This document shows positions 7,688-56,966 of a stretch of DNA of 64,000 nucleotides, one piece after another. The stretch is taken from the NCBI RefSeq assembly GCF_964204865.1, contig NC_135254.1, positions 8,623,001-8,687,000 of the forward strand, read 5' to 3'. The number at the start of each line of letters is the position of its first letter. Position 1 is the first letter of the stretch. Below the pieces are notes generated by a model, which made no database searches, was not told where the DNA came from, and was given only the letters and a program-made list of their open reading frames with translations. A program made the position numbers and the translations under genes. This DNA comes from Styela clava. Lineage: Eukaryota > Chordata > Ascidiacea > Stolidobranchia > Styelidae.

Positions 7688-10600
7688 TCATTCCTTCTGG
7701 CACAGGACTCCATTGTTAGAATACGAACGTTCGGCGTTGAACATTCCTTGGCTACTACGTGACGGATTTGCTACAGCGATCGCTATTTGAGTGTAAGTCT
7801 CAGTTTTGGTGGGTTCCCCTGGGATGTAGTGAATGTATGGAGCAGCGGCGCCGTTTGACAGTAAAACTCTATTCGTCTGTTAAAAATACAGAAATCTTAT
7901 TAGAAACATTGGTGTGAATACGATATTGAAAGATATGCACGCTAAATATTAAACTTCAGCAAAATTGGCGTCACGATATTTATGTGAAACGTTGGTGAAC
8001 TGGTCAGATTAGACATATGTATTTGAATAAAATTAATTCATGGATAGGTCAAATACTTTTAGTGAATAAATAGTTCAAGTAAGCATATAAAATGGTATGG
8101 TATCAGTTATGTCCCTACACCTCCCATATAGGGAGTGAACACCCCCTCTAATTTCAACACCCCACTGGATTTTGCACATACATACTGGATGGTATTCTTT
8201 AGGTTAGAATAGAATAATTGAATTAAAAATGAGAGATTCATTTCAAAATTCGTGGTAAGCTCTCATAATATTTAATAACAGCAAATATAGCCACGATTTA
8301 TTTACATACCGAGTGGTCGATTGTCATAGCCAACCACAAGGTTGCGTATGTTGAAAACATCAGTGTTCGAATATACTTGAAGACCAGCTCATATTGTTGG
8401 GAATCGATTATGTCTGCTGGCTTAGCCGACATTTTTATACACATTGCAACAGCTTCGTAGTAGTTGACATCGGTTATTGTGTGTAAGGAAACTAGATAAC
8501 ATTTACCGAGATGCACGACACCGTCACAAGGTCCTGTAAAATAAACATAGACAGTTAGAATACAGATTGTTGTTGTATTGAAAAAAAAAGACACCACCTT
8601 TCTTCACCAATAACTGAAATAGTTTGGGTTATTGGGGATTAGTTTGGATTTTACAAGAATGCTTCCTAAATGCCAAATGTAAGTCTTACTATTAATGCGA
8701 TCCATCATTATTCACTTCATGATGTTAGAAAAATCAATGTCAATAAATTGCTTAGATTGGGTTTCATCCATACATACGGCGCATCGGACTATAAGACGCA
8801 ACGAGTACTGGTGATGGTTTTGACTGCAAGCAATGAAGCACTACCTGATCTATACATTAAGCCAGTTTATACCAGTTTATAAAGCGCACGATCGATATTT
8901 GAGATGAAAAAGTATTTTAAATGCGCCTTATGATCCGTAAAATATTCGTGCATTCGTTAATGCTGTGTATAAGTTTGTTGCTACGTATTTGTGGGTTTTG
9001 CTCGCACTTCGGATTGATTTACGTATTTTCTTATCTGTGTTCATTTATCTGTAATTCAGATAATTAGCAATTATTAAATCATATAGATTGCTTCGAGTGT
9101 GCTCTCATACAATTCCATATCTGGTTACGGTTTGCAGTTTATCAAAAATCTATGGGTTGTCAATGAAACGAGCCCTGGATGAGATGCGTGCAATGTCAGA
9201 ATATTGAGGCGATGATTTAAAATCACACCGTGTCATGCACATCACCCAGGGTGTAATTGGGTGGGCAATGCCAAATTGAAAACATTCCTGTCCTTTCCAG
9301 CAGTAGTATTTCTTTATCTAGCAGTGGGCGCTTTTACAGAGCCCTACGCGGAGTGGAAAGTGTAGAAATACGTTTTATTAAAAAACAACTATATATACAG
9401 TTTTCTCAATGTTCCATACACTCAGAAATCAAATCTGACAAATCGATAATTAAACATGAAGATTTATTTAACGCAACAGACCTGACCGAATTGTTTTGAC
9501 AGCTGGCTCAGGTGTAGTTTGGACGGATGGCTCAGATGTAGTTTGTGGAATCACAATATCTTCGGGAGTTGTCAAAGACATTCTTGAAGGACTAGTCGAA
9601 GCGGGGACTGTTGAAGTGTTTACGCTGTTCATAGTAGAAAAGAACTCTTCGCGAGTTGTCCAAAGAGACTTTGCAGGTGTAACCAGAGCGGTGGGTGACT
9701 GAAGAAGTCTTCACGCTGTCGATTTCTGTGTGAAAATGGAATTTATTTAAAAAACGAAGTTGTAAAACTGATATGCAATTTTGCCTAGCGTACGAAGACG
9801 GCAATATTGAATCCATAATTTTTCTGTTTTACACAATCATTAACGAACGACTCATTCATCGTCTCTAAATTTCATTTCTTATTAGGACTGAAAGAAATAT
9901 ATTTATAATAATCGACAGCTTTAAACAGGGTTGTGCAACGGGCGGCCCGCGAGCCACAACCCGGCCCGCGAAGCAATTCAGTGTGGCCCCTGTAAACATT
10001 CATATTTCCCCCATCTAGAATAAAATCCTGATCAGACAGTTTATGTTCACAAAGGAGCTCACATGATTAGAAATACATGTTCTTTCGTTCTTATCGGTGT
10101 GATAAATTTTTCGCTTTTTGCCTGGTTCCTTTATTATTGTAGGTTTAATTTTTTAATTTGTTTTATCATTCATTGTTGTGTACATGAAAAATCCAAATAG
10201 TTTGTGTGGCTCAGTTAGATGCCTTAAGTTGGTTATAGGGTACACGGAGATAAAAGGTTGCACACCCCTGTCCTAAAACAACCGAAATTGGAAGAGTTTG
10301 TTTACCTTGTGGCTTGGTCGTTTCTTTTACATCTGTGGCAAGGGTGTGTATTGCGTTGTTTTCTGTTGTCGTTGCTGTAGTGGTTTTCAGTTTTCCATTC
10401 AGTAGCGTTATCATGCTGGCCAACTGGTTGATTTGATCTATAAATAAATAAAAATTGTTTAATTATCCAACTATTCATCAGTTCGTTGTTTGTTGATCAA
10501 CCATTTTTTGCTCGTAATATTTCAGTTTCAAATTTTTTTTTAACATTAAAATTTTATTTCAAAGTGTCTATTGTCATCGTTTCCGATTCGACAAAGCCAA

Positions 10601-11188
10601 TATTTCGATTATATGAACAAATAAAATAAAAAATGTTACGATTTGAAATATTTTGTTATGAAAAGAATAAAATACCCAAAACTAGGAGACTACAACTCTG
10701 GGGAATATATTTCTTACTCAACAGCGGCTGAGCCTAGTATGATACATCAGGGAACATAATTTTTGATAGAGAAAATAAAATAACCAATTCCGATGGGGCT
10801 CACAGTTGAATCGTTAAAGTGTTCTTTATGTTACGAACCTTCCAAAGCTTTTTTTCTGTTTCTCAATTCTTCATTCTTAAAACAAAAGGGATTATATAGT
10901 GAGAAATGAAAATGACTTATCTGTAATCTCGTTAATTGGCGAAATATTTGAAACTTATGTGACAACATAATGCCGTTTTGTTGAGCGCATAATGTTTAAG
11001 GAATATTTGAATTTAAAAAAAAAATGTAACTGATTTTTCATATATTATGAATGTCGCCAGACATACTTATTTTGAAACAAATAAATCTGAGATATGAAGC
11101 TACTATGAATATCTTACCATTTCGCATTCCCGGAACACTTCCCACACAGGTATATTGTTACACAGCATCGGTGCCCAGCATTTCTCTC
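7688..11188 (-). CDS. Lectin-like protein L1 with coiled coil and Thr/Ser-rich stalk (5' incomplete)
   Basis: Secreted or surface C-type-lectin-like protein by similarity to L2/L3. Exons, in transcription order: 11118-11188, 10839-10875, 10306-10437, 9482-9607, 8310-8533, 7688-7876 (stop TGA). Phases chain correctly (1-0, 0-1, 1-1, 1-1, 1-0, 0-stop), giving about 259 residues after a missing first exon. Exon 1 found encodes a Cys-rich segment (KCWAPMLCNN…RECEM); the next two a probable coiled coil (NEELRNRKKALE, then DQINQLASM) running into a TTTATTT stalk; the fourth a Thr/Ser/Pro-rich stalk (likely O-glycosylated). The last two are the lectin module: GPCDGVVHLGKCY, a central AVAMC, WLAMT, and a final VLCQKE. 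There is no collagen region, unlike L2 and L3. The stalk exon may instead start at 9698, which would need an extra exon. Signal peptide exon was not found upstream of 11190. Confidence 0.7.
8742..8950 (+). mobile_element. Intronic MITE-like repeat ('cggactataagacgca')
   Basis: Contains 'gcgcatcggactataagacgca' core, a motif of a widespread non-autonomous DNA transposon type with 'taccgtatttt' ends. Homologous sequence is present in the same intron of L2 (about 18370-18625) and L3 (about 38375-38620), and a relative with clear ends lies at 55737-55884 in L4. Insertion therefore predates the lectin-gene duplications. Confidence 0.55.
9926..10270. mobile_element. hAT MITE in L1 intron
   Basis: 345-bp element with matching ends: 'cagggttgtgcaacgggcgg' at the left and 'ggttgcacacccctg' at the right (reverse complement caggggtgtgcaacc). 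Flanking octamers gctttaaa and tcctaaaa agree only partly, as expected for an old target duplication. No coding capacity. Confidence 0.8.
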
Positions 11189-13198
11189 CTGTTGAAGAAA
11201 GATATATAGTTAGATAAAACAACGTCAAATTAAGAACATTGTTCCAATGCATAAGATATAATCATAAATACACATTAAACTCCAGTGCAATTCAAGACAG
11301 CTAGTTGACTATTTTGATTGATTGATTTTGTTTAACCACAAACTGGAAACTAAATTTCAATGAGAAGCAGCTTGTCCAAAGCTTTGTTCGGAGCTGTTTT
11401 ATGAAATATTTTAACTGACAAAACTGTCAGTAGCCTATAGTACACATATTACTGTATTGAAGAGCCTGTTTGTGCTAGTGAACACACAAACTCATTGACA
11501 GCATATCGTAACTTATTCCGCAATGAATACTAAAATAAAATAACAATTTCAATAAACATGCTATCCTGTTCTTTTGTTCAATATAATTGACTCCCTGATA
11601 CCCCGATAAAATTGCAAAGAATTACGAAGCGATAAATACAGAAATATCATAAGATCTTTTCACAAAGTTGTAAGTATCTTATGAGCGTTCATTAGATAAT
11701 AGTTCAAATTTTTCTGTATACTGTAATCGAAAGCTTAACAATATACTTGATTATTTTGTTGAAAAAAAAAAATTATTTATTTTTATTTGAAACCTCAATA
11801 CCAATTCGTTAAATCATTTTAGTGACAAGGCTCACTTAAAAATCCGAAGTAAGAAGAAATCAAAAATCAAAGACTTGCAGTTCAATACACAATATTCTAG
11901 CAATCCAAAACAAAAGTCATTCACGTTATAATTGAAATATTGCTCTCTTGTGATTGAAATGTCACAAACCTTTCATCAATGAAAAAGCTTCGACAATCAG
12001 GAGAAGTCTGATTAAAAAGACTCGAAGAGGAATTCCCATTTTGAAATCTTTGAGGATTTTGTCTACTTTTCTTTGCTTAAAAGTAAATTCTTTTACGGTT
12101 TGCAATAGAGTGTCACTTAACACTGTTTGCATCACATTATATTCTATGCGAGTTACTCACAGCTCATAGCAAGTGAGGAGAATTTTTTCTCTCTCTTTTT
12201 AAAAATTGAAAGGAAAAAAAAATGCATTTGGTCACAAAACAAAAACGTGAATTTAGTGGCGCATCTCTCTTTCTACCTTTATGAAACCGCACGGTGATCG
12301 ATGCTTCAATTCATTCAATGCTTTAATTTACGGTTGGCACAATATATGGAGTATTTTGCTACCCTGCCTATTTTCACGATTTGTAACAGGTAACACATTG
12401 ATAATATATTGTTTAATTGAAGCAATGTAAAAGAAAATTAAAGTTGAGATATAAATACTGTATATTTAATTTTCTGAATTTAATCGCCTTCCCTCGTTAC
12501 AAAAAGCAGGTGTAACAATAACACCCACAAAATTTAACACAAAGCATTTTTACATTTTAATTCGGTAACACAGGGTGTTGAAGTATTAAAAACATGAATT
12601 AACATGAATAAAAATAAGCAAACCTGATTGAGATATATAAAGAACTGACTTCATGACAAATTGCAACGAGATCTCATGAACACTTTGTAAGTCCATTAAT
12701 CGGATCTTCTGGAGATTGAACTAGGCGTGAAAGGACATAACAACATATACCGGTATCCTCGTCTAAAGTCTTAACCAGGGAGGATTTCCATGAGAGAAGG
12801 CAACAGAAGAGAATGCGGCGATGCTTAGCCTTACAGTTATAGAAGCACCAGGCAAAACAGCGGGAGATTTGACGAAATCACAAGAGCAAAAGACAACGTG
12901 TTTTTTTGTCTATGTGAGCGCCTTTTAAAACATAAACTGTCAAATTAGAATTTATGCTCGATGGGGAAAAGTCTGTTTGTAGGCACGGGACACACTAAAT
13001 GGTATGATCGCGTTCTGTGGCTAGCACTAAAGTTATATTTGGCGTTTTGAAAGTTTTGTATTATATTTATGAAAAGCGTGTCATGTTAGTATAATTCACG
13101 TAGTGTCACGCGTACATTATTGAAATGAGGTAAAGACAAAAATTTCATCTCTTTCTTTCACCTTGACAGTTCTGAAACAGTTTCGCATAGCATTAGGT
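11189..13198. other. Spacer expected to hold the L1 first exon
   Basis: AT-rich. A minus-strand GTGAGT donor is visible at about 12154-12162, but its phase would create a stop with the next L1 exon, so I did not use it. No convincing signal-peptide exon was found. The open frame at 11954-12169 has no supported identity. Confidence 0.3.
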
Positions 13199-17359: not shown

Positions 17360-19683
17360 TCATTCCCTCTGACACAAGACACCATCGGTAGAATACGACC
17401 GTGGAGCATTGAACATTCCTTGTTGACCACGTGACGGATTTCTTACAGAGATCGCTATTTGGGTGTTAGTTGCAGATGTGAGGGGTTTTCCGTGGTAGTG
17501 TTTAACGTATGGAGCAGCGGTGCCGTTTGACAACAGAACTCTATTCGTCTGTTAAAATACAGAAAAATCTAATTAGGAATATTGACGTGGATACGATCGA
17601 GTAGGAATGATTGAAGTATTTTCCGATATTTGGGAAACATTCAACTTTATAAAAATTGGCAAGGCGACATTTGTATAAAACTTGAGTGAAATGGTAAGAG
17701 TAAGCATATGAAAGGGGATAGTATTTTTCCTGGATAGTTAGAAGGCATCTAGTAAATAGTTCAAGTAAACATATAAAATGGGATGGTATCAGTTATTTTC
17801 CTTCCCCTCCCTCAAAGGGTTGGTCCATGGTAAGCTCTCACAATAATCAATAACAGCAAATATTGCCGCGATTTATTTACATACCGAGTGGTCGAATGTC
17901 ATAGCCAACCAGAACTCGTCGTATGATGAAGACATCACTGTTCGAATATACTTGAAGACCAAATCATAATGTTGAGACCCGATTATGTCTGCTGGTTTGG
18001 CCGACAATTTTGTACACATTGCAACAGCTTCGTTGTAGTTGATATCTCTCGCGGTGTGTAAAGAAGCTTGATAACATTTCCCGAGATGCAATAAACCGTC
18101 ACAGGGTTCTGTAAAAGAAACATAGACAGTTAGAATATAGATTGATGTCGTATTTGTAAAATAAAAAGAAAAGGCCCCAGCCTCACCAATAACTAAGTTT
18201 GGGTTATTGGAGATTGCGTTGTAATTTTCAATAATGCAGCTCTAATGCTAGATGGTGGTCTTAGTATCAATGCGAGTCATAATTATTAATTTCATGTTGT
18301 TTGGGAAATCAAGTATAACTTGAATGACTTGCAACTCGGGTCCGAGAGACTTCTATCCAGCACTAGTGCCTCATTTTGCGGACCGTGAGGAGCAACGGTT
18401 ATGACGCACTACCAATAAATTGCTTAGATTGTGTTTTATTCATAAATACGGCACATCGGACTATAAGACGCAAAGGATACTCATGCGGGTTTTGACTGCA
18501 GGCAATAAAGCACTACCTGGTCTATACATTAGGCGCGCCAGCGTATACGACGCACGATCGAATTTTCAGATGAAAAAGAATTTTAAATGCGCCCTATGGT
18601 CCGTAATAAATTCCTGCATTCGTTAACGCTGTGTATAAGTTTGTTTCTACGTATTTGTAGGTTATGCTCGCATTTCGGATTGATTAGCGTATTTTTTATC
18701 TGCGTTCACTTATTGAATTAGAGAAGCCAAACATTTATTATTTTATACTATATTGCATGTTCAATTTATTTTTTTCGTTTATATTAATCTTTGTACTTAT
18801 TTTAATAAAAATTGTTATTGCGCTTCTATGATTGGGAGTCAAGTTTACGATAAACGAACCGAAATACCTGATTCAATCTTCTCGTCCAATTCACCAAGTT
18901 TTGCCAGCATTCGTTCTTCTAATTCTTCAATTCTTGAAATCACTGACTTCTCAACTGTAGAAACAATTTTTGTTAATTAATTAAGCATTTTGCTACATTT
19001 TTGTTTTATTAACGAGAAGTTTCGCTCCGGACAGGGCCATGGACAAGCAACTACTATTGGTGAGCAATTGCGAAACTATCTAATTCCATTGTCGAATTTA
19101 AGCGGTAATTAACGTTTAAAAGTTATGTAAAACAAAAGAGTATATTTTCCAGAAATCCAGACTTACTGCTTTACATGGGAAATACGTTATCCCTTTTAAG
19201 TGTTTGAATAACAGAAGCCAATGCGACCAAATCCGCGCGACAAAAAATAATTTCCGGTCGAATAGTTGAATATAATAAATATCTAAACTTAATTTTAAAC
19301 ATTTGAATAAAAGACTACATGTAATTTATACAAAAGCAAAACAAGGACCGCGATCTAAACTTGAAAAACCTACCTAATTTCTCAAATAGTTGTTCAACGG
19401 TGGCATTGACTTTTTGATAATCGACAATTCCTGGGTCGCCTTGTTGACCTTTGACCCCAGGCATCCCTATTCCACCCATTTCTCCCTTTAAACCTCTTTT
19501 TCCAGGTGGGCCAGGAGAACGATGAGAGTGGGTTGAACCACGACTGGGAATCGAATCGTTTTCGTCTTCAGCAAACACGTCGTCCACATTCTTGCATATC
19601 ATATGCTGACTTTGTGATGTCACAAGAGTAGTAAAGAAGAAGTGACAAAGACAGACAAGAAGTAATAAACGTCTCGTTATCAT
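17360..19683 (-). CDS. Secreted collagen/coiled-coil/C-type-lectin-like protein L2
   Basis: Complete four-exon gene: 19374-19683, 18868-18954, 17885-18108, 17360-17548 (stop TGA); phases 1, 1, 0; 269 residues. Residues 1-23 form a signal peptide with a strongly hydrophobic core. A lone Cys30 could link chains. Ten Gly-X-Y triplets run from Gly58 to about residue 87, then an NAT glycosylation site at Asn93. Exon 2 (residues 104-132) is a short Glu/Lys/Leu-rich coiled coil. Exons 3 and 4 form a divergent C-type-lectin-like module: C135 and C144 (CDGLLHLGKCY), C164 (AVAMC), WLAMTFDHS, and C266 near the end. The pair of cysteines usual in the long loop and any EPN/QPD/WND calcium-sugar motif are absent, so sugar binding cannot be assumed. 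The layout parallels collectins: trimerising collagen and neck, then lectin head. An acceptor lies 18 nt before the ATG. L3 is its closest relative. Confidence 0.85.
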
Positions 19684-19712: not shown

Positions 19713-19734
19713 TAATATAATGAGTATCTAGATA

Positions 19735-27719: not shown

Positions 27720-28305
27720 CAGTGGCGTAGCCAGCCCAAAATTTTAGGAGAGGGCAAAATTTGAAAATTTAAGAAATTATATTGGGTTTAAAACACCGTT
27801 CTTCAAGCGCCCGTTCTTCAAGCGCAAAACAACAACAGTTGGTCACCAAGCAAACTGATTCAATTACTCAGCTGGATTTTTGTGAATACAAAATCCATTA
27901 ATAAACAATTTTTCATTTGAAACAACAAATATTAACAACGCAATTTGAATAAGTAAAATACATCGCCCCAATTAAAAGTCCATCCTTCGCTTCCCGCCAA
28001 CTATGCTCGACACAACTCGATTAATTTTCTCCTCGGTGACCATTTCACGGTGACAGTGAAGCACACACAAAACAGAAAGGCGATTGGACGTCATTGATGA
28101 GCGCAGCCATGTCTTTACCCGTTTCATGCATGAGAAAGACCGCTCAGCCTCAACGGTGGTTGCTAGTAGCGTCATACCGATCTGTATTGCGGTGTACACG
28201 CTTGACGAGACAAGATGCCACAAAACTGGTGGATTAGGAATGGAATTCTTGAAAATTTTGGGGGGGGGGGCATGGCCCCTCTGCCATGGCCCCTCTGTTT
28301 TCCTT
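27720..28305. mobile_element. Deleted hAT element with transposase C-terminus
   Basis: Left end 'cagtggcgtagccagcc' is a common hAT terminus; on the right 'ggggggggggcatggcccct' corresponds to the usual inner right end, but the final terminal repeat is missing. The interior retains only the end of a transposase gene on the minus strand (27972-28223). Confidence 0.8.
27972..28223 (-). pseudogene. hAT transposase, C-terminal dimerisation region remnant
   Basis: The minus-strand frame contains EAERSFSCMKRVKTWLRSSM followed by TSNRLSVLCVLHCHREM. This is the diagnostic hAT C-terminal (hATC) dimerisation motif, of the ZMYM/P52rIPK-like transposase group. The DDE catalytic domain and zinc finger are missing, so it cannot act as a transposase. 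The frame is open for 83 residues and ends at TGA near 27972. Confidence 0.85.
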
Positions 28306-28560
28306 GTGATCTATCTTTACTATGTATTGTTCATTATTACTTATCGATCTCGATCGGTAAGTATGTTGATATACATTTGTCTGTTTGTTTGTTTGTTTTT
28401 TAGACACTTTCGTATATGTTATTATGCGATATCAAACGAAAGCGAGGTTAAATCTGCTCCAAATGTTGCAAGTTCATTCATCATATTTCCTCCCATTGGA
28501 TTTTGGATGAATTATGTCGTTTAATTAGCGAGTTATTAATCAAGTAGTGATGGGACACGC
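28306..28560. repeat. Dispersed repeat with TTTG microsatellite
   Basis: 'ttacttatcgatctcgatcg', 'tctgtttgtttgtttg' and 'ggatgaattatgtcgtttaa' recur in inverted orientation at 35776-36010 ('cgatcaagatcgatgagtaa', 'aacataattcatcc'). Probably a non-autonomous DNA transposon with an internal tetranucleotide tract; ends not defined. Confidence 0.6.
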
Positions 28561-30419
28561 GGTGTCGCTATTGAGTCAGAGCGAAGGAATCGAAACCGCT
28601 GATCGACAAGTCGGCGTTCTCCGATCGCTATCTAGATCGCTTGGTATTTATGCATGCTTTTTGTTTCATTTCAGTTTTGAAAACTTTTTATTGTTCAGCT
28701 CAATAATAATAACATGTTAATTAAAAATATAGAAATATGTGATCGTCTGTCTGATCTATCAAGTCTATATTTCTCAAAATCCCGCATCACGCTGGCCAAA
28801 AAAAAAAATCATTTCAAAACGAGACTGTTAGAGAACGTTTGCATTGTTCAATTTCCGTTCGGTAATACTTTAGTGCTCCAAGATGGAGCTATTTATTCAA
28901 CATTGATTTCTTCACTTTAAATTTTGTTTCCTATTTATTTTTCAGATGAAAATCATGTGTCTTCCTGTTACTCAAATGTTATCATCTTGTGTTTTCAAAC
29001 TAATAAAATAAACATTCGAGTTTCGTACATCTTGTGTGGATGTCTTGGTTAGTTGAGATATATTGGGTGGTATATGACACTTAGAACCGATATTATGTTC
29101 TCCTTTTCGACCAATCCACCAGTTCAAATCTCTTTTCTTGATATATTATTAGATATATCACGTATAGGGTAAGTGAGTATTCCCAATTAAAAATTTTCCA
29201 ACTCATTTGTTTTGTACACACTGCTTTTACTCGATCAACTTTTGTGTAGCGGTTCACTGGCCAATGTAAGCTTATAAAATGGGATTGGTATACAATTTTT
29301 CGATGATTCATGAAGTTTTTTATGGGAATGCTCCTCGTTCACTTGATGCTCGTGCTTCTTAAAGTTTGGACGCTTTCACAAACGTTATTACTTTTTTCTC
29401 TTCCAAGAGAATTCCGAAGAAGACTGAAAATTCTCTGTGAATCAGAAATTTTTGTTCGTTGCGCTTCTTGTATGTTTTAATTCAGAAATCACAAACTCAT
29501 TGTACGTCTGCATAATAGCCAGCTATGTACGATGATGTTAATCAAGTTTTCTCAAAACTGAGCAGAGTATCAATTGGTCGACTAGGTAAATACAAACAAA
29601 ACAAAAAACATTGTTGCCCGTTGGCTATTTGAATCTGGCCCGGCTGATACTGCCACAGCTAAACTAAAATCTAATTTGTTGTTTTAGCTAGAAAATAGCT
29701 CATGAAATTTGTTAAGATTGCGATTGCATTTAGATTTGGCACGAGGCTCACTGTTTTCCACTTCTATTCATAAAATGTAACTTTTTACATCACCCTTACA
29801 TGGCCAGCCGGTCTAGGCGGGCAAAATTTTGGCCCCTGGTATAAAAATCTTCCAACCGCTGATCTAGTGGGTTGAAAACAGACACTCTTTGATCTAAAAA
29901 CCATCTGCTGGTCGTCGGTTTTCAAATAAATGTTTCGCTCGTACCCAATCTTTCAATTTAATATAGCAAGTATATTTCTGTATAAAAAGATTGCGTTGAA
30001 ACAAATTTCGCAGTGTCACTGGCATTTCCACAATTATTACACACAGAAGTTTTTATAATGGCCAATTGTTGCGTAAAATCTGAATAAAACTTCAAAACCA
30101 GATTATTCTATCGATTCTGTTACTATTATTCTCACGTCACACATTATGATTTTCACATAGCATCAGAAGCGAGTCCATTACATATACCAAACGAACACAT
30201 ATCGCTCATGCGCACACCTCATGTTTGATAAAACGCGCAAAATACGGATATCCGTTTTCTAGAATAATCTAAATCACGGGCCACATAACATTGAAACCAC
30301 GTTTGCCCAATTTTTCTTTGTTTTCATAGTTATCATTTATTTATATTCCATATAGTTAATTATTCGGTTACACTAGCATTTGTTGATTGCCGCATTACAG
30401 TACTGCTTAATTCTTTTTG
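28561..30419. other. Unassigned spacer
   Basis: AT-rich; open frames at 28714-28920 and 29093-29311 have no supported identity. 'ggccagccggtctaggcgggcaaa' segment near 29801 resembles a hAT MITE end. Nothing else seen. Confidence 0.4.
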
Positions 30420-30911
30420 TTTGAAATTATCCACTTACTAAATAACTTGACGAAACGAACAACAAAATATTCTTGAACCTACAGAAAGGCGAAGAATAGG
30501 ATAAAATAATAGGTATAGGTTGTGGAATTTATTTTTGAAGCAATTGCTGTTTAATAATGATGAATCAAATTAAAAATACAACGCAAACAATACGAATTAT
30601 AAATATCGTCAATGTTTGTGATTCTTTCATCTTCTAGTTTATAGAATAATGTAAAAATATCGATATAATAAAATGGCCATCGAGTTTTTTCTGAAATGAA
30701 AAATATGTAAGTAAGTTGATGGCCACCTCATCCGTCAGTATTCAGAGAAAAATGAATCTTAAAGTTCTTTTATAATATTCTTTTCAACTAAAATGTTCAA
30801 TTCGCAATAACACAATGCGGTATTTTTTTAAATTAACAATTTGTAAAACATAAAAATGATTTTTATACTAAAAAGTACTTACTGTTCGTAAAACTTGTGT
30901 CAACATTCCCA

Positions 30912-33039: not shown

Positions 33040-33160
33040 CTCAAAACAGCTTATGTTTCGAAAACCATTAATCGAAGAAAGATTCGAAGTTTATTGCAAG
33101 ACCTCTTCCTCAGACTGATGAGAATTGTGTTGTTGTCTCTGTATTATGTAGCCTTGCTAT
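33040..33160 (-). other. Probable 5' leader exon of peptide gene B
   Basis: Minus-strand exon edge TTTTGAG with a GTGAGT donor at 33034-33039, conserved with 4093 in block A. Consistent with a non-coding first exon; 5' limit unknown. Confidence 0.35.
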
Positions 33161-34303: not shown

Positions 34304-34365
34304 TCAATAAAGTAATAAGATAAGATGTTCCATAAGAAATAACATTTCTTGATTACTGACGCTAT
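34304..34365 (-). pseudogene. Stray terminal exon homologous to peptide gene G5
   Basis: After an acceptor (attgcctatgcag) the phase-1 frame reads SVSNQEMLFLMEHLILLLY then TGA. It aligns at DNA and protein level with the last exon of the gene at 62009-62576 (NADNLHDQEILFHGKS), sharing 'atcaagaaat(t/g)ttatttc'. No matching upstream exons were found between 34366 and 34660, so it is a partial copy or the end of a gene I cannot resolve. Downstream flank 34270-34300 also matches the G5 3' flank at about 61960. Confidence 0.45.
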
Positions 34366-34666: not shown

Positions 34667-35298
34667 TCAAATTATATCATCATAAATGGATGGGATTTGA
34701 TATTTCCCGGAGGCATAATCGGGTTCATCATAAACGCGTTCGATGTTTGGCATCTGACGAGAAGTGCTGGGCTTTGAGGAGACAGTAGGATCCGTAGGCA
34801 GATTCAGGTTGGCGGGAGGTTGCAATTCGACGTTGTCGTACATGGGAGGGGGTACAGGTGGGGGATGAATATTCCCTTGGACATTATAATTGAGCGCTTG
34901 GAGATTAGCGTGAGCCTCCTCCACAATTGGTATTTGAACAGATACGTTGGGGTTTGGCATTGGTGAGAGATATCCTTCCTCACCTTCCGGTACGGGAATC
35001 TCTTCGTACTCAGGGGCTAAAGCCGAGTTTGCGATATTTTCTTCGTGGCCTTGTTGTCTGTAACAAAGGCACATCGTTGGGAAATGGCTGGAAACGGGGA
35101 AATGGTGGATTGGTTAATAAAATAATTTATTTCATCTATTTTTCAAATAAATCACGACCCCAATCTCCACGTTTTTAAATAACAAATTAGTAATAATCTG
35201 CTCAGGGTTCGGATTAAAAATGAATATCAATTTCAATTCACAATTTAATTTTGTCATACTGACCTTAAATTGAGTATTTCTGCTATCGATGTTTTTTG
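34667..35298 (-). CDS. Cytoplasmic tail of a receptor-like protein (last two exons)
   Basis: The last exon (34667-35057) follows acceptor ttgttacag, starts in phase 2 and encodes 129 residues to TGA. A 35-bp exon at 35264-35298 (QKTSIAEILNL) between acceptor ctattagacag and donor GTCAGT joins it in phase. The sequence is acidic and Pro-rich, without Cys or hydrophobic segments after the splice, and is full of tyrosines in SH2-ligand contexts: YEEI (Src-family type), YLSP, YDNV (Grb2-type YxN), YDEP (Crk/Nck type) and YDDII at the end, plus a PPPVPPP SH3-type run. This looks like the intracellular tail of a phosphotyrosine-signalling membrane receptor or an adaptor. Upstream membrane and extracellular exons were not found; the next 1 kb upstream is occupied by repeats. 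The 35-bp exon is the less certain part. Confidence 0.6.
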
Positions 35299-37270: not shown

Positions 37271-39634
37271 CTAGTTTGATGGAGATCGTTCCTTCTGGCA
37301 CAACACCCCATTGGTATAATACGAACGTGGGACGTTGAACATTCCTTGTGTGACGATACCATCACGTGACGGATTTCTTGCAACGATCGCCATTTGGGTG
37401 TTGATTGCAGATGCGATGGGTTTCCCGTGGTAGTATTTAACGTATGGAGCAGTGACGCCGATTGACAGTAAAACTCTATTCGTCTGTTAAAAATACAGAA
37501 ATCTAATTAGGAATGCGATCGATAAGAAATGATTGGGGTAATTAGCAATATTCGAAGATACCCAGGATAAATATTAAACGCAATGAAAATTGGCGTGTAA
37601 GTAGAACTTTGGTGAAATGGTAAGAATTAGTATACGGGGTGGTATTAGTATTATTTCCTGGACAGGTAGAAAGCATATAGTAAATAAATAGTTCAATTAG
37701 GCATATAAAATGGGATGGTGACAGTGATTTCCCTACAACTCCCTCACAGGGAGTGAACACCCCTAAAATTTTGACTCCATGACTTTGAACGTACATTAGA
37801 TTAATCAGAAACGGGAAATTCATTTCAAAATTCATGGTGATTTCTCACAAAACTCAATAACAGCAAATATTGCCACGATTTATTTACATACCGAGTGGTC
37901 GAATGTCATAGCCAACCACAACTCTTCGTATGATGAAGACATTATTGTTCGAATATAATTGAAGATCAAATCATAATGTTGAGAATCGATTATGTCTGCT
38001 GGTTTTGCCGACATTTTTGTACACATTGCAACAGCTTCGTCGTAAGTGACATCTCTTGCGGTGTGTAAAGAAGCTTGATAACATTTCCCGAGATGCACTA
38101 CACCGTCACAGGGTCCTGTAAAATAAACATAGACAGTTGGAATATAGATTGATGTCGTATTTGTAAAATAAAAATGAAAGGCCCAGCCTGCCTCACCAAT
38201 AACTAAGTTTGGGTTATTGGAGATTGCGTTGTATTTTCCAATAATGCAGGTTTAGTGCTAGATGGTGGTCTTAGTATCAATGCGAGTCATAATTATTCAT
38301 TTCATGTTGTTTGAGAAATCAAGTATAACTTGAATGACTTGCGACTCGGGTCCGAGAGACTTCTATCGAGCACTAGTGCCTTATTTTACGGACCGCGAGG
38401 AGCAACGGTTATGACGCACTGCCAATAAATTGCTTAGATTGTGTTTTATTCATAAATACGGCACATCGGACTATAAGACGCAAAGGGTACTTGGTTTTGA
38501 CTGCAGGCAATAAAGCACTACCTGGTCTATACATTAGGCGCGCCAGCGTATACGACGCACGATCGAATTTTCAGATGAAAAAGAATTTTAAATGCGCCTT
38601 ATGGTTCGTAATAAATTCCTGCATTCGTTAACGCTGTGTATAAGTTTGTTTCTACGTATTTGTAGGTTATGCTCGCATTTCGGATTGATTAGCGTATTTT
38701 TTATCTGCGTTCACTTATTGAAATAGAGGAGCCAAACATTTATTATTTTATACTATATTGCATGTTCAATTTATTTCTTTCGTTTACATTAATCTTTGTA
38801 TTTATTTTAATAAAAAATGTTATTGCGCTTCTATGATTGGGAGTCAAGTTTACGTTAAAGGAACCGAAATACCTGATTCAATCTTCTCTTCCAATTCACC
38901 AAGTTTTGCCAGCATTCGTTCTTCTAATTCTTCAATTCTTGAAATCACTGACTTCTCAACTGTAGAAACAATTTTTGTTAATTAATTAAGCATTTCGCTA
39001 CATTTTTGTTTTATCAACGAGAAGTTTCGCTCCATACAGGGCCGTAGACAAGCAACTACTATTGTTGAGCAATTGCGAAACTATCTAATTCCATTGTCAA
39101 ATTTAAGCGGTAATTACCGTTTAAATGTTATGTAAAACAAAAGAGTATATTTTCCAGAAATCCAGACTTACTGCTTTACATGGAAAATACGATATCCCTT
39201 TTAAGTGTTTGAATAACAGAAGCTAATGCGCCCAAATCTGCGCGACAAAAAATAATTTCAGGTCGAATAGTTGTATATAATAAATATCTAAACTTGATTT
39301 TAAACATTTGAATAAGAGACTACATGTAATTTATACAAAAGCAAAACAAGGACCGCAATCTAAACTTGAAAAATCTACCTAATTTCTTAAATAGCTCTTC
39401 AACGGTGGCATTGACTTTTTGATAATCGACAATTCCTGGGTCGCCTTGTTGACCTTTGACCCCAGGCATCCTTATTCCACCCATTTCTCCCTTTAAACCT
39501 CTTTTTCCAGGTGGGCCAGGAGAACGATGAGAGTGGGTTGAACCGCGACTGGAAATCGAATCGTTTTCACCAAACACGTCGTCAAAGACGAGGTGACAAA
39601 GGCAGACTAGAAGTAACGTACGTTTCGTAATCAT
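37271..39634 (-). CDS. Secreted collagen/coiled-coil/C-type-lectin-like protein L3
   Basis: Four exons: 39379-39634, 38873-38959, 37892-38115, 37271-37483 (stop TAG), phases 1, 1, 0; 259 residues. Very close to L2 across exons and introns, so a recent duplicate. Differences are informative. About 18 residues spanning the end of the signal peptide and the N-terminal Cys of L2 are deleted, leaving MITKRTLLLVCLCHLVFDDV; secretion signal strength is reduced but a hydrophobic core remains. One collagen Gly is replaced by Arg (GGIRMPG), interrupting the Gly-X-Y run. The last exon carries an insertion (RDGIVTQG against RGQQG) and the TGA of L2 has become CGA, adding five residues (RSPSN). Coiled coil, lectin cysteines (CDG, GKC, AMC, VLC) and WLAMTFDHS are intact. 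An acceptor lies 18 nt before the ATG. Confidence 0.8.
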
Positions 39635-47811: not shown

Positions 47812-48074
47812 GGCCAGGGTGGTCCAAAGGTCTGTTTTGATTAAGGTAAGCTTGTCTCGGCGCACTTACCTTCAACAGCAGACAGCTGGAGTCGTTTGGG
47901 CCTCAAAACCCCGCTCCAGTCAGTCTAGTTTGGGGGAGGCCCTCCCGCCGCGTTATCGCATAGGGCCTCTTCGTCAGCTTATAACAGATTTTTGAGAGTC
48001 ATTTTGAGTGTTTTCGGACTATAAATCAGGAAAGGAAAGCTTCTTTATTAGCACATTTCGGACTATATAGAAGC

Positions 48075-49535
48075 ATGGCATACTCTGCAGCTGCGTCCAC
48101 AATACCTCGGAGTACAATCAATACACCAACCACTACAAGACCAAGGACCTTATTTCTAAAATCAGAGCAAGAATTGGATTTTCCCAGACTGATGGACATA
48201 TTAAAGAAGGACACTACCACTCAGAAATATTGCGAGCATATCAGGGCATTATACGAAGAAAGGAAAGGGTTGTGGATCTTATCTTTTGCAGCTTTGGAAG
48301 ACCCGGAGTCAAGTGTGCGAGGTGATTTCCTGCATGAAACAGGCGGAATCATTCGTGCGGAGAACATCACGATAGAGGTCTCGCTGCCAACCAAAGCACC
48401 GATCCGAATTTCGATCAGAAGCATACCGCCCGAGACGAGTTTTGCAAAAGCCTCAGCCATAATACACAATCTGGGCTGCGGAAAGATAAAGAGTGCCAGT
48501 AGGAACTATCATCGAGGCACGGATGTATATAACGGCTACACTTCTTTTCTCATGGAAGAATTTAAGAAGGATCGGTTGCCCGACTTTGTCATCATGGAGG
48601 GCATTCGATGCAAAACATTTTTACCGAGAGAATTATATATCCCTACTTGTGGCCGATGCCTGCAGACCGGTCACGTTTTCACCAATTGTGAGAATGAGCC
48701 GGTGTGTAGGCACTGTAAGAAACCTGGACACATTCGAAAGCACTGCGATAAAGTAGAAAAGGACTTCCCGAACCTACAAGGTGCGGCAACATGGGCGATC
48801 CCAAAACATATGAGAAGAGCTCAACAAGAACGAGCGTTTCAGCATCTCGTTTCGGACGCAACCCAAAGCGAGACAAACACGCCAACAAGCAACAACATGG
48901 CAGAAAAATTGGCCAATACACCGAAAGACACAATACAAAACGCAAACAAATCAGATACTGAAAATTTGGAAGACTCTCTTAACACAATGACACAAAAAGA
49001 AACAACCATACAACTCGCTGACGACCGAAACAGGACAAATGTGGACACACAGGGATTTTCATCCTCGGGCACTGACTCAATTGAAATCAATAATTGGTCG
49101 GAATGTGAAGACACGGGCAACCCAATCAGTCCGATAATAACTCCACCACAAATTCCGAAATCAAAGCCGAAAACATCCACGCGTCTAAAGCCCACATCAA
49201 CAATTGGAAACACGCCCTTTCATGCGCCCCCTAGGGGAAATGAGTACGTGAAGGTCCTTGTCCAAAATTTTGAATCTAGAGAGACAACACTCTGCTCAGT
49301 GTTCAGCGACTCGCCACTGGAGACTACATCAGCGCCGGCAGATCTGGGAAACAACATGCCCCTGCCAAGTAGGCTAAATTTGGACATATCTAGAAGCGAC
49401 ATGGAAAATGATGACCATAACAATAAGAGAAATAGAGAAGACACATCGTCATCAGGTTCATCGTTATCAGCTACTCGCACCATAAAAGAGAAATCTACCG
49501 GGAAAAAGAAAAAGGGATCGACAACAAAACTGTGA
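48075..49535 (+). CDS. LINE ORF1 protein, RRM-like plus two CCHC zinc knuckles
   Basis: 486-residue nucleic-acid-binding protein expected to coat the LINE RNA and act as chaperone during retrotransposition. Residues about 100-190 (IEVSLPTKAPIRISIRSIPP onward) look like the RRM-type fold seen in Tx1-like ORF1 and ZCCHC3-like proteins. Two perfect C-x2-C-x4-H-x4-C knuckles follow: C192-C205 (CGRCLQTGHVFTNC) and C211-C224 (CRHCKKPGHIRKHC). The rest is polar, Thr/Ser/Asn-rich and probably disordered, with a basic end (GKKKKGSTTKL). The frame is uninterrupted, which is unusual for a genomic LINE copy. ORF1 and ORF2 are in different frames. The several minus-strand open frames here are shadows. Confidence 0.9.
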   Translation: MAYSAAASTIPRSTINTPTTTRPRTLFLKSEQELDFPRLMDILKKDTTTQKYCEHIRALYEERKGLWILSFAALEDPESSVRGDFLHETGGIIRAENITIEVSLPTKAPIRISIRSIPPETSFAKASAIIHNLGCGKIKSASRNYHRGTDVYNGYTSFLMEEFKKDRLPDFVIMEGIRCKTFLPRELYIPTCGRCLQTGHVFTNCENEPVCRHCKKPGHIRKHCDKVEKDFPNLQGAATWAIPKHMRRAQQERAFQHLVSDATQSETNTPTSNNMAEKLANTPKDTIQNANKSDTENLEDSLNTMTQKETTIQLADDRNRTNVDTQGFSSSGTDSIEINNWSECEDTGNPISPIITPPQIPKSKPKTSTRLKPTSTIGNTPFHAPPRGNEYVKVLVQNFESRETTLCSVFSDSPLETTSAPADLGNNMPLPSRLNLDISRSDMENDDHNNKRNREDTSSSGSSLSATRTIKEKSTGKKKKGSTTKL

Positions 49536-49798
49536 GTTATAAAAATCAGTTATAACAAAAAGTAAGAAACATCTGGAAAAAATACTCTGATAAAATCTAT
49601 AAATAGTGTTTTATATTTATTTACCACAAAGCTTAGGCTACAGCATACTGTACACCTCTCCCAAAATACGTGCCATGTTTGAACCGAAGCTGGTATGGTG
49701 CAATGCCAATCATTCAGGGCGTGCCTGTCCGTTGGTATTAAACGTTGGTATCAACGTACCATATAACTACATACTCCTTCTTACTTACCTGATCCTAT

Positions 49799-52700
49799 AT
49801 GCATGAAATGGCGGGAATAAAGATAATATCCTTGAATTCAAACGGTGTCCAACACCGATTGAATGATCTAAGAAATTATATCGGTCACGAGAGACCAAAT
49901 GTTCTGTGCGTGCAAGAGGTGCACAAGATAGACAAATTATTGGTCACACAATGGGCGGAAGCACTAGGATATAACATTTTTATGAATACGCTGGATAAAT
50001 TGGACAAATACCATACGACTTTCAAGCAAGGAACTTTGATTATGATTAAATTTGAAAACACTAATTTGCCAACCACCTACGCCATACATATCCAACACCG
50101 CTTGGATAGCGTAGAAATTAATATCGACCGCCAAACAATAAAAATATTCAACGTATATGCCCCAGCCCAAAACGGACCTGAAAAAACGAAATTTTGTGAA
50201 AAACTGGTAGTAACGTTAAAGAATTACATAGACACATATGACATAATAATGGTAGGCGATTTTAACTTTGTGCTTGAGCCAATTGATGTCCTAATCCCCA
50301 GAAATTTTAAACTTCGGCCGCCGGAAAAAATTCTAAAAAAATTCATCCAGGAAAACAACATTGTCGACACATATAGAAGAAAATACCCCCAAAAACAAAT
50401 TTTTACGCACCTTACCGGATCGCAGGGAAGACGTATTGACAACATCTATAGCTCGAAAAACTTGGATCATATGGTCTCAGAAATATCCCATGCAATAAAC
50501 ACAGTGTCAGATCACCTGTTGTGCCCCCAGATAGTACTCAAACAAGCTCAAAAAATCCGATGGGGAAAAAGCGTGTGGCGAAATAACGTTCTGTTATATG
50601 ACGATCCAACCTACGTTAGAGTGATTAAAAACACCTATGCATCCGCTCTAAACGAAATACAAAACTTTGAATCGCTACAATTATGGTGGGATTATGTAAA
50701 AAACAGAATCAAAAAAGTGACAATGGCTTACTCAAAAAACGTTGCAAATAATAAACGAAACAATTTGGCTCAATTACGGAAAAACCTGGATAAATTGATA
50801 AATGAAGGGAAAAGGGAGAATACTTTAAAAATAGAAAACCTAAAATCGCAACTAAAATCACTGTATGAAGAACGAAACAAATTGGATATCTTGATGGCAA
50901 ATATTCAAACCCTTGAGGAGAACGAAAAGCCAACAAAAACTTTTTTTGCACGAATAAAAAAAAGAGCCAAAGAAACTACCATAACTGAACTGAGAGCATC
51001 AAACAACAGGTCAACCACCAAAGAGGAGGAGATCATAAAGCTGGTAGAAAAATTCTACGCAAATTTATGGGGTGAAGAACACCAAACATCCGAGTACTAC
51101 CAACAATATTATCTCTCACTCATGGAAACAACTCAAATTTCAAAACAAGATAACGACGGCCTAGAACAATACGTGACCAGCGCTGAGATTCTGCATACAA
51201 TCAAGCAGATGTTCAACAACCGATCGCCGGGGATGGACGGACTAGGAAAAGAGTTTTACGTTACTTTCTGGGACACCATACAAATTCAATTTACGCAACT
51301 TATAAACAATATTTTCTCTTTCGGCCCCCTACCCAAATCTGCCTCAATTGCCAAAGTAAAACTGTTGTATAAAAATAACGACCAATTAAACCTCAAAAAC
51401 TGGCGCCCAATCACAACTTTGAATACAGACTATAAGATTATATCGAAAATTATCGTAAATCGTCTGGAACCCATTATGGACCCAATTATAAGCCCCTCTC
51501 AAAAATGTTCAATCAAATCAAGGAATATGGTCGACATTCATTATAACATAGATGCTATCTTCCGACACTGTCAGAATAATAACATCCCTGGCTCTCTGGT
51601 AATGATCGATAACTTAAAAGCCTTCGATAATGTAAGTCACAGCTTCGTATTTAAGGTCTTGCAACACATAGGTTTGGGATGCAAGACATTAAACATCATA
51701 AAAAGCATGTATACGGACATATATAGCCGTATAGATGTGAATGGTCGTCTAACCAACCCAATAACTATACGGCGCGGCATACGACAGGGATGCCCGTTAA
51801 GTATGATGTTATATTGCTTGACGGTCGAACCACTCGCAAGATCAATCCAGACAAACTCGCAAATAAAAGGAATAAAACTCGGCGCATATGAGCATAAATT
51901 AGACCAATATGCTGACGACATTACTTTTGCGGTTAGAGATCAAATATCCATATCAAAAATCTTTGAAGAATTAGAAAATTTTAAACAAGCAGCCGGACAA
52001 CAAATCAATAAAGAAAAAACGGAAATACTATGTATCACCAAAATAGCGCTCAACTCGATATCAAAATCTCCATACCACCAATATATTAAACCGGACTGCA
52101 AAATACTTGGCATCCATTTTGGACTTAAACCATTGGAAAAAATGTGGGACGAGATGATTGGATTACTAACCCGGACCCTAAATTCATTGAAACCAAGAAA
52201 CCTGACTTGGTATGGCAAACTAACTGCAATCAACTCCTTAATAATGTCGATCATCACATTTCATGCGCGGGTCAAGACCATCTCCTCAAGGAATATCAAA
52301 TCAATCGAGAGCGTACTCCATAAATTTATATGGTACCCCGCAAAAATAGAGGCAATAAAGAGAAAACACCTCCAACTGTCAGTGGCGAGTGGGGGTATCG
52401 GAATGGTTGATGTAAAGTCAAAAGTGGAAGCCTGTAAGATCGAACGATTAAAAGCCTTTGTGAGAGGTGAAAACCTCAATCAATTTTGGCATATCGAAGG
52501 CCTATACTCACTTGAGTCAAAAATTAAAGAAATAAATCCAAGCCTTTACAACAACTCGATGCCGCACAGTAACACAACCCCCACAACATGGAGGGAAATG
52601 CTGGACCTCTACCGTAAAATAGATCTCACACGGGATGTCTGGGAAACAGCAAGACACAAACACCTCTATCAGGAGCTTAAGAGCAAGGCACCTGAACAAG

Positions 52701-53287
52701 GCCAACGGATACCAACCATAAACTGGGAAGAAGTTCAGCTCATAAGTAATACCTTGAGAAACAAGTTCACAAATGCGGAACGAATACTATCCTACCGCAT
52801 AGTCCGTGAGGGATACATCTTCGGCGACCGCATGCGGGGAATGTCCCTAAGATTCGACCAAAACGGAGTGCTGAAGATATTAAACTGTAAATTCTGCAAA
52901 ACCCCTTCCGACAACACGAAGCATCTTATCCAACACTGCAATAAAACTGACTATTATATTGGAAAAACTGTAAACTTTATTAGCGACATATTACGTACCC
53001 CCATAAAAATCAACAGAGAGCAAATATTTTACAACAGTTATGATGGCCCACACCAGATAGCAGTAACTAAATGCTTCGTCCTTTTAAAGAAGAATATAAT
53101 TGGAACAAAAATCAAACTGGACATACAAAACAAATACCTGGCCCCAACCGATGATAAAATAATCCAAAAAACAATAGACAAATTTGCAGAATTTCTAATT
53201 ACAATGGAATACAAACATACGGACATACAGTTTCTTGGCTTTCCAGCAAACTGGAAAGCAATCTTAAGTGGGTATTTAAATATGTGA
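49799..53287 (+). CDS. LINE ORF2 protein, AP-like endonuclease and reverse transcriptase
   Basis: 1162 residues, uninterrupted. It nicks target DNA and copies the LINE RNA at the nick (target-primed reverse transcription). The endonuclease occupies about residues 1-245: SLNSNG, CVQEVH, GDFN at 153-156 and SDH at 237-239 are the catalytic signature residues of the APE family. The reverse transcriptase follows: WRPITTLNTDYKIISKIIVN, MIDNLKAFDNVSH, RRGIRQGCPLS and the active-site YADD at 704-707 (many L1 relatives have FADD). Near the C-terminus a C-x2-C…H-x4-C cluster starting at C1030 (CKFCKTPSDNTKHLIQHC) is the zinc-finger-like motif typical of L1/Tx1 ORF2. The first ATG (49799) is used; an ATG three codons later is an alternative. 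All catalytic motifs are present, so the element may be active or only recently silenced. Confidence 0.95.
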   Translation: MHEMAGIKIISLNSNGVQHRLNDLRNYIGHERPNVLCVQEVHKIDKLLVTQWAEALGYNIFMNTLDKLDKYHTTFKQGTLIMIKFENTNLPTTYAIHIQHRLDSVEINIDRQTIKIFNVYAPAQNGPEKTKFCEKLVVTLKNYIDTYDIIMVGDFNFVLEPIDVLIPRNFKLRPPEKILKKFIQENNIVDTYRRKYPQKQIFTHLTGSQGRRIDNIYSSKNLDHMVSEISHAINTVSDHLLCPQIVLKQAQKIRWGKSVWRNNVLLYDDPTYVRVIKNTYASALNEIQNFESLQLWWDYVKNRIKKVTMAYSKNVANNKRNNLAQLRKNLDKLINEGKRENTLKIENLKSQLKSLYEERNKLDILMANIQTLEENEKPTKTFFARIKKRAKETTITELRASNNRSTTKEEEIIKLVEKFYANLWGEEHQTSEYYQQYYLSLMETTQISKQDNDGLEQYVTSAEILHTIKQMFNNRSPGMDGLGKEFYVTFWDTIQIQFTQLINNIFSFGPLPKSASIAKVKLLYKNNDQLNLKNWRPITTLNTDYKIISKIIVNRLEPIMDPIISPSQKCSIKSRNMVDIHYNIDAIFRHCQNNNIPGSLVMIDNLKAFDNVSHSFVFKVLQHIGLGCKTLNIIKSMYTDIYSRIDVNGRLTNPITIRRGIRQGCPLSMMLYCLTVEPLARSIQTNSQIKGIKLGAYEHKLDQYADDITFAVRDQISISKIFEELENFKQAAGQQINKEKTEILCITKIALNSISKSPYHQYIKPDCKILGIHFGLKPLEKMWDEMIGLLTRTLNSLKPRNLTWYGKLTAINSLIMSIITFHARVKTISSRNIKSIESVLHKFIWYPAKIEAIKRKHLQLSVASGGIGMVDVKSKVEACKIERLKAFVRGENLNQFWHIEGLYSLESKIKEINPSLYNNSMPHSNTTPTTWREMLDLYRKIDLTRDVWETARHKHLYQELKSKAPEQGQRIPTINWEEVQLISNTLRNKFTNAERILSYRIVREGYIFGDRMRGMSLRFDQNGVLKILNCKFCKTPSDNTKHLIQHCNKTDYYIGKTVNFISDILRTPIKINREQIFYNSYDGPHQIAVTKCFVLLKKNIIGTKIKLDIQNKYLAPTDDKIIQKTIDKFAEFLITMEYKHTDIQFLGFPANWKAILSGYLNM

Positions 53288-54700: not shown

Positions 54701-54745
54701 TCTCATTCTATTCTTTTTTTCCAGTGATTATAAAATCCAAGTATC

Positions 54746-56966
54746 ATGAGTCGTTCGTTATTTCTTGTCTGCCTTTGCCACTTGTTTACCACTATTGTGA
54801 TGTCGCAAAGTCAGCATATGATATGCAGGAATGTGGACGACGTGTTTGGTGAAAACGATTCGATTTCAAGTCGCGAATCAACCCACTCCCGTAGTTTTCA
54901 GGGCCCGCCTGGTGAAAGAGGATTAACGGAGAGAAATAGGTGTACTAGGGATGCATGGGGTCAAAGGTCAACAAGGCGACCCAGGAAATGTCGACTATCA
55001 AAAAGTCAATGCCACCGTTGAACAGCTATTTGAGAAATTAGGTGAGTTTATTAAGTTTAGATTGTGGTCCTTGTTTTGCCTCTGTATAAATTACATGTAG
55101 TATATTATTCCAATGTTTAAAATCAAATTTAGATATTTATTATATTTAATTATTTTCCGGAAATTATTGTCGCGCGGATTTGAGCGCTTTGGCTTTTGTT
55201 ATTCAAAAACCTAAAAAGGGATATCGTATTTCCCCTGGATTCTGGATTGCTGGAAAAAGACTCTTTTGTTTTAGATTACATTCAAACGATAATATCCGCT
55301 TGTAGCCGTGGAAAAATTTAGTTACGCAAATACTCACCAACAGTAGTTGCGAATGAATGCTGGCCAAACTTGACGAATTGAACAAGAAGATTTGGTTAGG
55401 TAATATCAATGAATCAGTTATTTCGGCTCCTTTGACATGAAACTGACTTTATGCAGTTTTATTGGACATTTGGTACACTCTGCAGTAAATTGCACTCTTA
55501 AACAAAGAAGCGCAATAACAGTTTTTATTAAAATAAATTCAAAGTTGATTTGACCCAAACAAAAGAAATAAAATGAACATGCAATAAAGTATATACACAA
55601 TTCTATATAAAAGGAATGTCTTGGCTTTTCTAATGCAATAAGTGAACACAGATAATAAAAAACGCAAATCAAACCAAAGTGCGACCATAACCTACGAATA
55701 CGTAGCAACAAAACTTATACACAATATTGAAGAATGTACCGTATTTCAGGGCTAAAGGCTCATTTAAAATAGTTTTTATTCCAAAAATCGATCCTGCGCC
55801 TTATATATTGGCGCGCCTAATGTATAGATCAGGTAGTCAAAAACCAGTATAAGCACCCTTCTCGCGCTCCGTAAAATACGGTACTAGTGATTCGGTACCA
55901 ATGAATAATTATGACTCGCATTAATAATAAGACTTCCATCTGGCATTAAACCATCATTGAAACTCCAAATTAGGTTTTAATCTCCAATAACCCAAGCATT
56001 TTCAGTTATTGGTGAAGCAAGCTGGTGCCTCTTCCTTTTTTTTCTATACGATAGCAATCTATATTTTGTCTATGTTTATTTTACAGGACCCTATGACGGT
56101 GTAGTGCATCTCGGGAAATGTTACATAGCTTCTTTACACACCACAAGAGATGTCAACTACGAAGAAGCTGTTGCAATGTGCACAAAATTGTCGGCAAAAC
56201 CAGCAGACATAATCGGTTCTCAACATTATGATATGGTCTTAAAGTATATTCGAACAATGATGTCTTCATCATACGAAGAAGTCTGGTTGGCTATGACATT
56301 CGACCACTCGGTATGTAAATAAATCGTGACTATATTTGCTGTTAATGAATTTTATGAGAGATTATCATGGATTTTAAAATGAATCTCCCCCTTGTGTTTA
56401 ATCTTGTCATTTTAATCTAACCTGAGGAATTACATCCGGTATGGATGTTCAAAATTAGGGGAATGTTTGAAATTTTAGGCGGATGTTTGTTTCGTATAGA
56501 GGAAGTTGTAGGGAAATCACTGATTCCAAACCATTTTATATGCTTACTTGACCTATTTATTCACTATATTCTATCTACCTATGCAGGAAATAATAATAAT
56601 CCCACTCCGTATGCTTATTCTCAACAGATCACCAAAGTTTTACATAAATATCGTCACGCCAATTCTCTTAAAATTGATTATTTATCCTGAACCTCAGCGT
56701 ATCTTCAAATATCGGAAATAACCTCAATCAACGCATTACCACCAATTTACCTGATAAGATTTCTGTATTTTTAACAGACGAATAGAGCTTTACTGTCAAA
56801 CGGCACCACTGCTCCATACATTACTTACTTCTCAGGGCAACCCAACAAACCTGCAACTCACACTCTAATGGCATTCGGTGCACGAAATCCGTCACGTGGT
56901 CAGCAAGGAATGTTCAATGCTCCACGGTCGTATACTACCAATGGTGCCTTGTGCCAGAGGGAATGA
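54746..56966 (+). pseudogene. Collagen/C-type-lectin-like gene L4, degraded inverted copy
   Basis: Exons correspond one to one with L2: 54746-55041, 55322-55399, 56087-56310 and 56778-56966. Three lesions stand out. Exon 1 has one extra base within 'ttaacggagagaaata' (about 54928-54938) that shifts the collagen frame; omitting it restores both the Gly-X-Y series and phase 1 at the donor. Exon 2 is 78 rather than 87 bp and has an in-frame TGA (about 55350) in the coiled coil. In exon 3 the first lectin Cys is Tyr (PYDG for PCDG) while its partner GKC remains. Exons 3 and 4 are otherwise open to the TGA at 56964-56966 with WLAMTFDHS and ALCQRE. An acceptor lies 21 nt before the ATG (ttttttccag). 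Lies in inverted orientation to L1-L3. A sequencing error could explain the frameshift but not the stop. Confidence 0.8.
55737..55884. mobile_element. MITE in L4 intron, 'taccgtattt' ends
   Basis: Short element bounded by 'gtaccgtatttcagggc' and 'ctccgtaaaatacggtac', a near-perfect inverted pair. Corresponds in position and core to the intronic repeats of L1 (8742-8950), L2 (18370-18625) and L3 (38375-38620). Confidence 0.7.

Follow-up and report, generated by a model that had tools for sequence, protein, structure and literature searches.

Do neighbouring genes that share two terminal exons and differ upstream of them represent a new recognition system, or the usual turnover of a family of known type? 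This question is raised by a locus in the ascidian Styela clava, studied in a window of 64,000 nucleotides (assembly GCF_964204865.1, contig NC_135254.1, positions 8,623,001 to 8,687,000). The window holds four copies, L1 to L4, of a block that ends in two exons encoding a lectin-like head. Only one of these copies, L2, encodes a whole collectin-like layout. Segmental duplication links the three further copies to L2, and their 5' modules have been lost or altered, in agreement with the upstream differences described in an earlier, sequence-only reading of this DNA. The interpretation that is favoured, by a modest degree, is a local birth-and-death family of secreted collectin-like proteins, in which collagen is combined with a head resembling a C-type-lectin-like domain (CTLD) that probably binds without calcium. 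The pattern seems to be one of routine gains and losses among immune-style genes of an already known type, not a new system.

The head loci are found at 7688-8533, 17360-18108 and 37271-38115 on the minus strand (L1, L2 and L3) and at 56087-56966 on the plus strand (L4). In the gene models the first lectin exon (exon A) is 224 base pairs (bp) long in all four copies, and the second (exon B) is 189 bp in three copies and 213 bp in L3. Both exons are open in every copy, and the sizes, the phases (1 to 0) and the GT/AG splice sites given in the sequence-only reading were recovered throughout. Self-alignment of the window shows 90% identity between L2 and L3 across 2565 aligned columns and 75-77% over about 1.6 kb each for L1/L3, L1/L4 and L3/L4, all four pairs with an expect value (E) of 0.0. 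Other pieces of the lectin block are down to 71% identical, giving an overall range of 71-90% for the duplicated pieces. The four-copy duplication is thus far beyond chance, and the segmental origin proposed for it is borne out. A second duplicated stretch (2013-5614 and 30380-34316), with pieces 70-86% identical in the self-alignment, lies 3' of both L1 and L3 and may be part of the same duplication unit.

The identity between L2 and L3 is not evenly distributed. In bins of 150 columns, with insertions and deletions excluded, it is 90-99% from about 20,350 to about 17,820 (L2 coordinates), and in the next eight bins, which cover the last intron, exon B and the downstream sequence, it is 81, 73, 85, 83, 93, 77, 83 and 64%. 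Identity is 95.6% over the 500 bp preceding exon A, compared with 75.6% in the intron after it. A step of this kind could reflect gene conversion, or else a later duplication confined to the 5' half.

In the gene model, the L2 copy is built up by four exons on the minus strand: exon 1 (19374-19683), a neck exon (18868-18954), lectin exon A (17885-18108) and the terminal lectin exon B (17360-17548, 189 bp including the stop). They splice to an open reading frame (ORF) of 810 bp encoding 269 amino acids, with a hydrophobic leader, a segment with a single cysteine (Cys30), ten uninterrupted Gly-X-Y triplets, a short neck and the CTLD-like head, in that order. Exon 1 matches the Pfam collagen family at E 1.1e-4. 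The coiled coil claimed for the neck is weakly supported: in a heptad test the 29-residue neck exon gives a borderline result (a fraction of 0.043 of the shuffles attains its score), but a 46-residue stretch fails both this test (0.92 of shuffles) and a periodicity test (0.25).

The same collectin layout had been claimed for L3, where it does not hold. This copy (minus strand) splices to an open reading frame of 780 bp encoding 259 amino acids and has a neck exon (38873-38959) that differs from that of L2 at 1 of 87 bases, followed by exon A (37892-38115) and an exon B (37271-37483) with three internal extra codons and a C-terminal extension of five codons. Its exon 1 (39379-39634) encodes the leader and a collagen region in which the glycine of the sixth triplet is replaced by arginine, splitting the ten triplets into 5 + 4, and it lacks the 16 residues that hold the sole N-terminal cysteine outside the leader. 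In human mannose-binding lectin (MBL), replacement of Gly by Asp or Glu disrupts the collagen helix as well as the oligomers (PMC2592599). By analogy, the Gly to Arg change in L3 may do the same.

L4 (plus strand), not credited with the layout in the sequence-only reading, is damaged as well. In its exon 1 remnant (54746-55041), which encodes a leader and collagen, the collagen carries a +1 frameshift, and the neck is reduced to a fragment with a stop (55351-55392), recognised by a match that is weak (E 1.0) but located where the neck exon would be expected. Despite this 5' damage the lectin exons A (56087-56310) and B (56778-56966) are open, with tyrosine at the place of the first head cysteine. 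Between L3 and L4 there is an element resembling a long interspersed element (47985-53287, plus strand) with two long open frames. The frame of 1164 amino acids matches reverse transcriptase (E 3.2e-32) and endonuclease (E 3.7e-11); the frame of 516 amino acids has a zinc-knuckle match at E 0.71 only.

Upstream of its exons A (8310-8533) and B (7688-7876), L1 (minus strand) takes a different form. The duplicated block that it has in common with the other copies ends at about 9048 in the self-alignment, and no collagen match was found when looked for by similarity at the locus. L1 may instead carry a Thr/Ser-rich stalk, encoded by a candidate Thr/Ser/Pro-rich exon at 9482-9698 whose entry phase is mismatched with a donor at 10306. 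The candidate exons further upstream are a Thr-rich exon with an uncertain 3' end (10306-10437), a short exon (10839-10875), a cysteine-containing exon (11118-11188) and a leader exon (11970-12039). A model using 10306 as the donor of exon 4 was rejected because the frame shifts, and a search across alternative donors and acceptors gave nine open models of 294-333 amino acids, with donors that look weak by eye.

Three further features lie around this copy. An inverted-repeat insertion resembling a miniature inverted-repeat transposable element is seen by eye at about 9926-10270 (minus strand), in the intron between candidate exons 4 and 5. A cysteine-rich open stretch at 9150-9317 (minus strand), just upstream of the shared block, resembles by eye the first half of a CTLD, and it was outside the top 20 ORFs of the CTLD profile screen described below. 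Directly downstream of L1, at 7079-7294, a 107 bp unit is present in two tandem copies that are 99% alike.

Is the head a CTLD? Lectin_C is the sole Pfam family matched by all four heads, with a best E of 0.016 that is under the curated cutoff. A profile was built from 13 CTLDs, of which 11 were unverified sequences, and with this profile the four heads scored 16.7-22.5 bits, compared with a maximum of 11.9 in 4000 shuffles. The window contains 2172 stop-to-stop ORFs; in a CTLD profile screen of these, the top four places went to the exon A ORFs of the four copies. Comparison with hhalign at two column settings gave probabilities of 89.1% (79 columns aligned) and 81.1% (88 columns), without reaching the C-terminal third. 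In the multiple alignment, GKCY, AMC, WLAM and the final LCQ of the heads fall on the CTLD hairpin, C1, WIGL and C4. The cysteines of AMC and LCQ, at the C1 and C4 places, and the WLAM strand are invariant in the four heads, and the proline of EPN is retained in all four. The 5' boundary of exon A lies immediately ahead of the head, and its 3' boundary follows WLAMTFDHS. Fish antifreeze-like genes and salmon serum lectin genes have introns upstream of C1 and just after WIGL (PMC514892), and the intron sites of the heads match those of these CTLD genes. The lectin-like nature claimed for the head is supported by weak yet concordant sequence scores, alignment and intron sites, and the head is probably a very divergent CTLD-like domain. 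Two of the four heads also matched the Pfam family UL45, which is itself annotated as C-type-lectin-like and was not kept as an identity. Similarities to REV1 and Toll-like receptor 4 in a profile search of the PDB were rejected (E 0.04-0.18 over a short stretch), as were DUF6233 and other lone weak Pfam matches, and an NCBIfam scan of the heads gave one match, at E 0.16 in one of the four.

The divergence is most evident at the functional motifs. A disulfide between C2 and C3 is usual in CTLDs, and no cysteine is found at either place in any of the four heads, an absence not treated as excluding. The EPN place reads KPL in L2, KPI in L3, EPT in L1 and QPN in L4, so that L1 and L4 are each one residue short of EPN, and the WND place reads FNA or FNV. 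Judged from motifs alone, none of the four heads has a full calcium-sugar motif (EPN or QPD, and WND). Since WND is absent, a calcium site would not be expected in L1 and L4 either. A head without the second disulfide and the calcium-sugar motifs, as described in the sequence-only reading, was accordingly found in all four copies.

The divergence of the lectin exons was compared with that of the shared intron in six copy pairs, which are not independent. Nonsynonymous divergence in exon A is 0.26-0.56 of the intron's and lower in all six pairs (Fisher p between 1.4e-6 and 0.018). In the three pairs that include L1, the synonymous divergence (dS) of exon A is 0.28-0.29, equal to the intron's, and the nonsynonymous divergence (dN) is about half. 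This supports constraint on exon A, most cleanly in these three pairs.

Several results weigh against a collectin-like protein with a constrained CTLD. The collagen match of L2, at 22.3 bits, is under the curated cutoff of 27.2, and the Lectin_C score for L3 is 15.4 bits compared with a cutoff of 22.6. In the CTLD profile screen, exon B ORFs taken by themselves do no better than chance (one of four in the top 20, at 3.4 bits), and the C-terminal third is aligned by the profile in L1 only. The profile search of the PDB returned 16 sequences, none of them a CTLD, with REV1 as the best at E 0.043. The heads of vertebrate collectins are encoded by one exon, unlike the two-exon head found here. In the three pairs without L1, the synonymous divergence of exon A is 0.09-0.14, compared with 0.25-0.30 for the intron; because it is itself far under the intron's, gene conversion rather than constraint may account, wholly or partly, for the low exon A values in these pairs. 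Over both exons, the comparison of nonsynonymous with synonymous change gives p < 0.05 in only one of six pairs.

Exon B behaves differently and allows other explanations of the cluster. If selection on a ligand face encoded by exon B drives both copy number and divergence, the cluster would be a diversifying recognition family with a role in defence or self-recognition. Nonsynonymous divergence in exon B is 0.50-0.93 of the intron's and significantly lower (p < 0.05) in only one of six pairs, and dN/dS exceeds 1 for L1-L3 (1.24) and L1-L4 (1.12), in favour of such a family. These are two of six pairs with few changes, too few to claim positive selection, and in no pair is exon B faster than the intron. 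Exon B changes at near the intron rate in most pairs, with which relaxed constraint and diversification are both compatible, relaxed constraint accounting for it equally well, and no evidence of self-recognition, as had been suggested, was found within the window. A diversifying family is considered quite improbable. The chances are slimmer still for its more elaborate form, a lineage-specific humoral recognition family with a CTLD lacking the long-loop disulfide and calcium site, multimerised by collagen, diversifying in exon B and swapping collagen for a mucin-like stalk among its 5' modules, which would give soluble and matrix-bound versions of one head.

A structural or matrix protein of tunic, mucus, cuticle or capsule that joins short collagen to a CTLD-like module would fit the short collagen and the absent sugar site, as well as the Thr/Ser-rich stalk that L1 may bear; against it stands L2, whose parts follow the order of a plain collectin, and it is considered unlikely. 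The broken copies raise the suspicion that the cluster consists mostly of pseudogenes, relics of a cluster with working members elsewhere, given the frameshift and neck remnant of L4, the collagen break of L3 and the exon loss and phase problem of L1. The frames of L2 and L3 are nevertheless open over 810 and 780 bp, both lectin exons are open in all four copies, and nonsynonymous change in exon A is under the intron's in the three L1 pairs, where conversion is no explanation, and this view is considered improbable. The description of the cluster as a locally expanding set of secreted recognition proteins is not supported either: L2 alone is complete, L3 has an interrupted collagen repeat, L4 carries a frameshift, and L1 is without the collagen exon.

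If the cluster is a birth-and-death family of collectin-like proteins, L2 would be secreted and would trimerise via collagen and neck, with Cys30 forming cross-links. The trimer would present three heads to a ligand and bind it without calcium, probably by the surface that exon B encodes, and the clustered heads might tag or agglutinate the target. A mucin-like stalk would carry this head in L1, if that copy is expressed, and L3 would form weak oligomers at best. An oligomer of this kind would mean that the plan of collagen plus CTLD has been retained while the sugar site was lost. The cluster illustrates how the part beneath one head can be lost or swapped within few duplications, although at present it is a modest annotation result.

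Elsewhere in the window, an apparent last exon at 34667-35087 (minus strand), with a possible poly(A) signal downstream, encodes a peptide like a cytoplasmic tail with the tyrosine motifs YEEI, YLSPM, YDNV and YDEPDY. It has no Pfam match and no second copy in the window, and its upstream exons were not found. A fragment resembling a hAT transposase dimerisation region is located at 27975-28310 (minus strand; E 0.0023, 18.1 bits compared with a cutoff of 21.4). Beyond this fragment, a Pfam search of ten other ORFs and gene pieces gave DUF6259 at E 0.008, a score well short of its cutoff, and weaker matches. Scans of the window for transfer RNAs and Rfam families found none.

Searches for relatives in microbial and viral contig collections gave 43 pattern matches (genome_contigs) and 26 (viral_contigs), none of them confirmed, which has little bearing on animals. 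No paper on this cluster was recognised in a literature search that was weak in being made without a species or gene name.

Among known systems, L2 resembles the collectins (group III: MBL, CL-10, CL-11 and SP-D) in its leader, N-terminal cysteine, Gly-X-Y triplets, neck and C-terminal CTLD-like head (PMC5794833). The cluster differs from them in that L2 has ten triplets only, C2 and C3 are absent, EPN and WND are incomplete and the head is encoded by two exons. The MASP-binding motif of MBL and ficolins is Hyp-Gly-Lys-aliphatic-Gly-Pro (PMC2592599); L2 has Pro-Gly-Lys-Arg-Gly-Leu (PGKRGL), in which the lysine is kept but the aliphatic residue and the proline are not. Because the calcium-sugar motifs are incomplete in all four heads and the MASP motif is not preserved, L2 was not filed as a collectin. 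CD69 and NKG2D have, like the heads of the cluster, a CTLD without EPN and WND. They bind ligands of protein type, sit in the membrane as receptors and retain the C2-C3 disulfide, whereas L2 is predicted to be secreted and collagenous. Parallels in layout are also found among invertebrates. Ciona intestinalis has nine reported collectin genes (PMC514892), Styela plicata has collectin-like proteins (PMC5465252), and two cnidarians, C. xamachana and C. hemisphaerica, have proteins with collagen and a CTLD, most of the surveyed cnidarians being without them (PMC8260672). Compared by description, these proteins share with the present cluster the invertebrate layout of collagen and CTLD and, in Ciona, the presence of several genes. 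The general kind of protein encoded here, collagen plus CTLD, is already described in tunicates and in two cnidarians.

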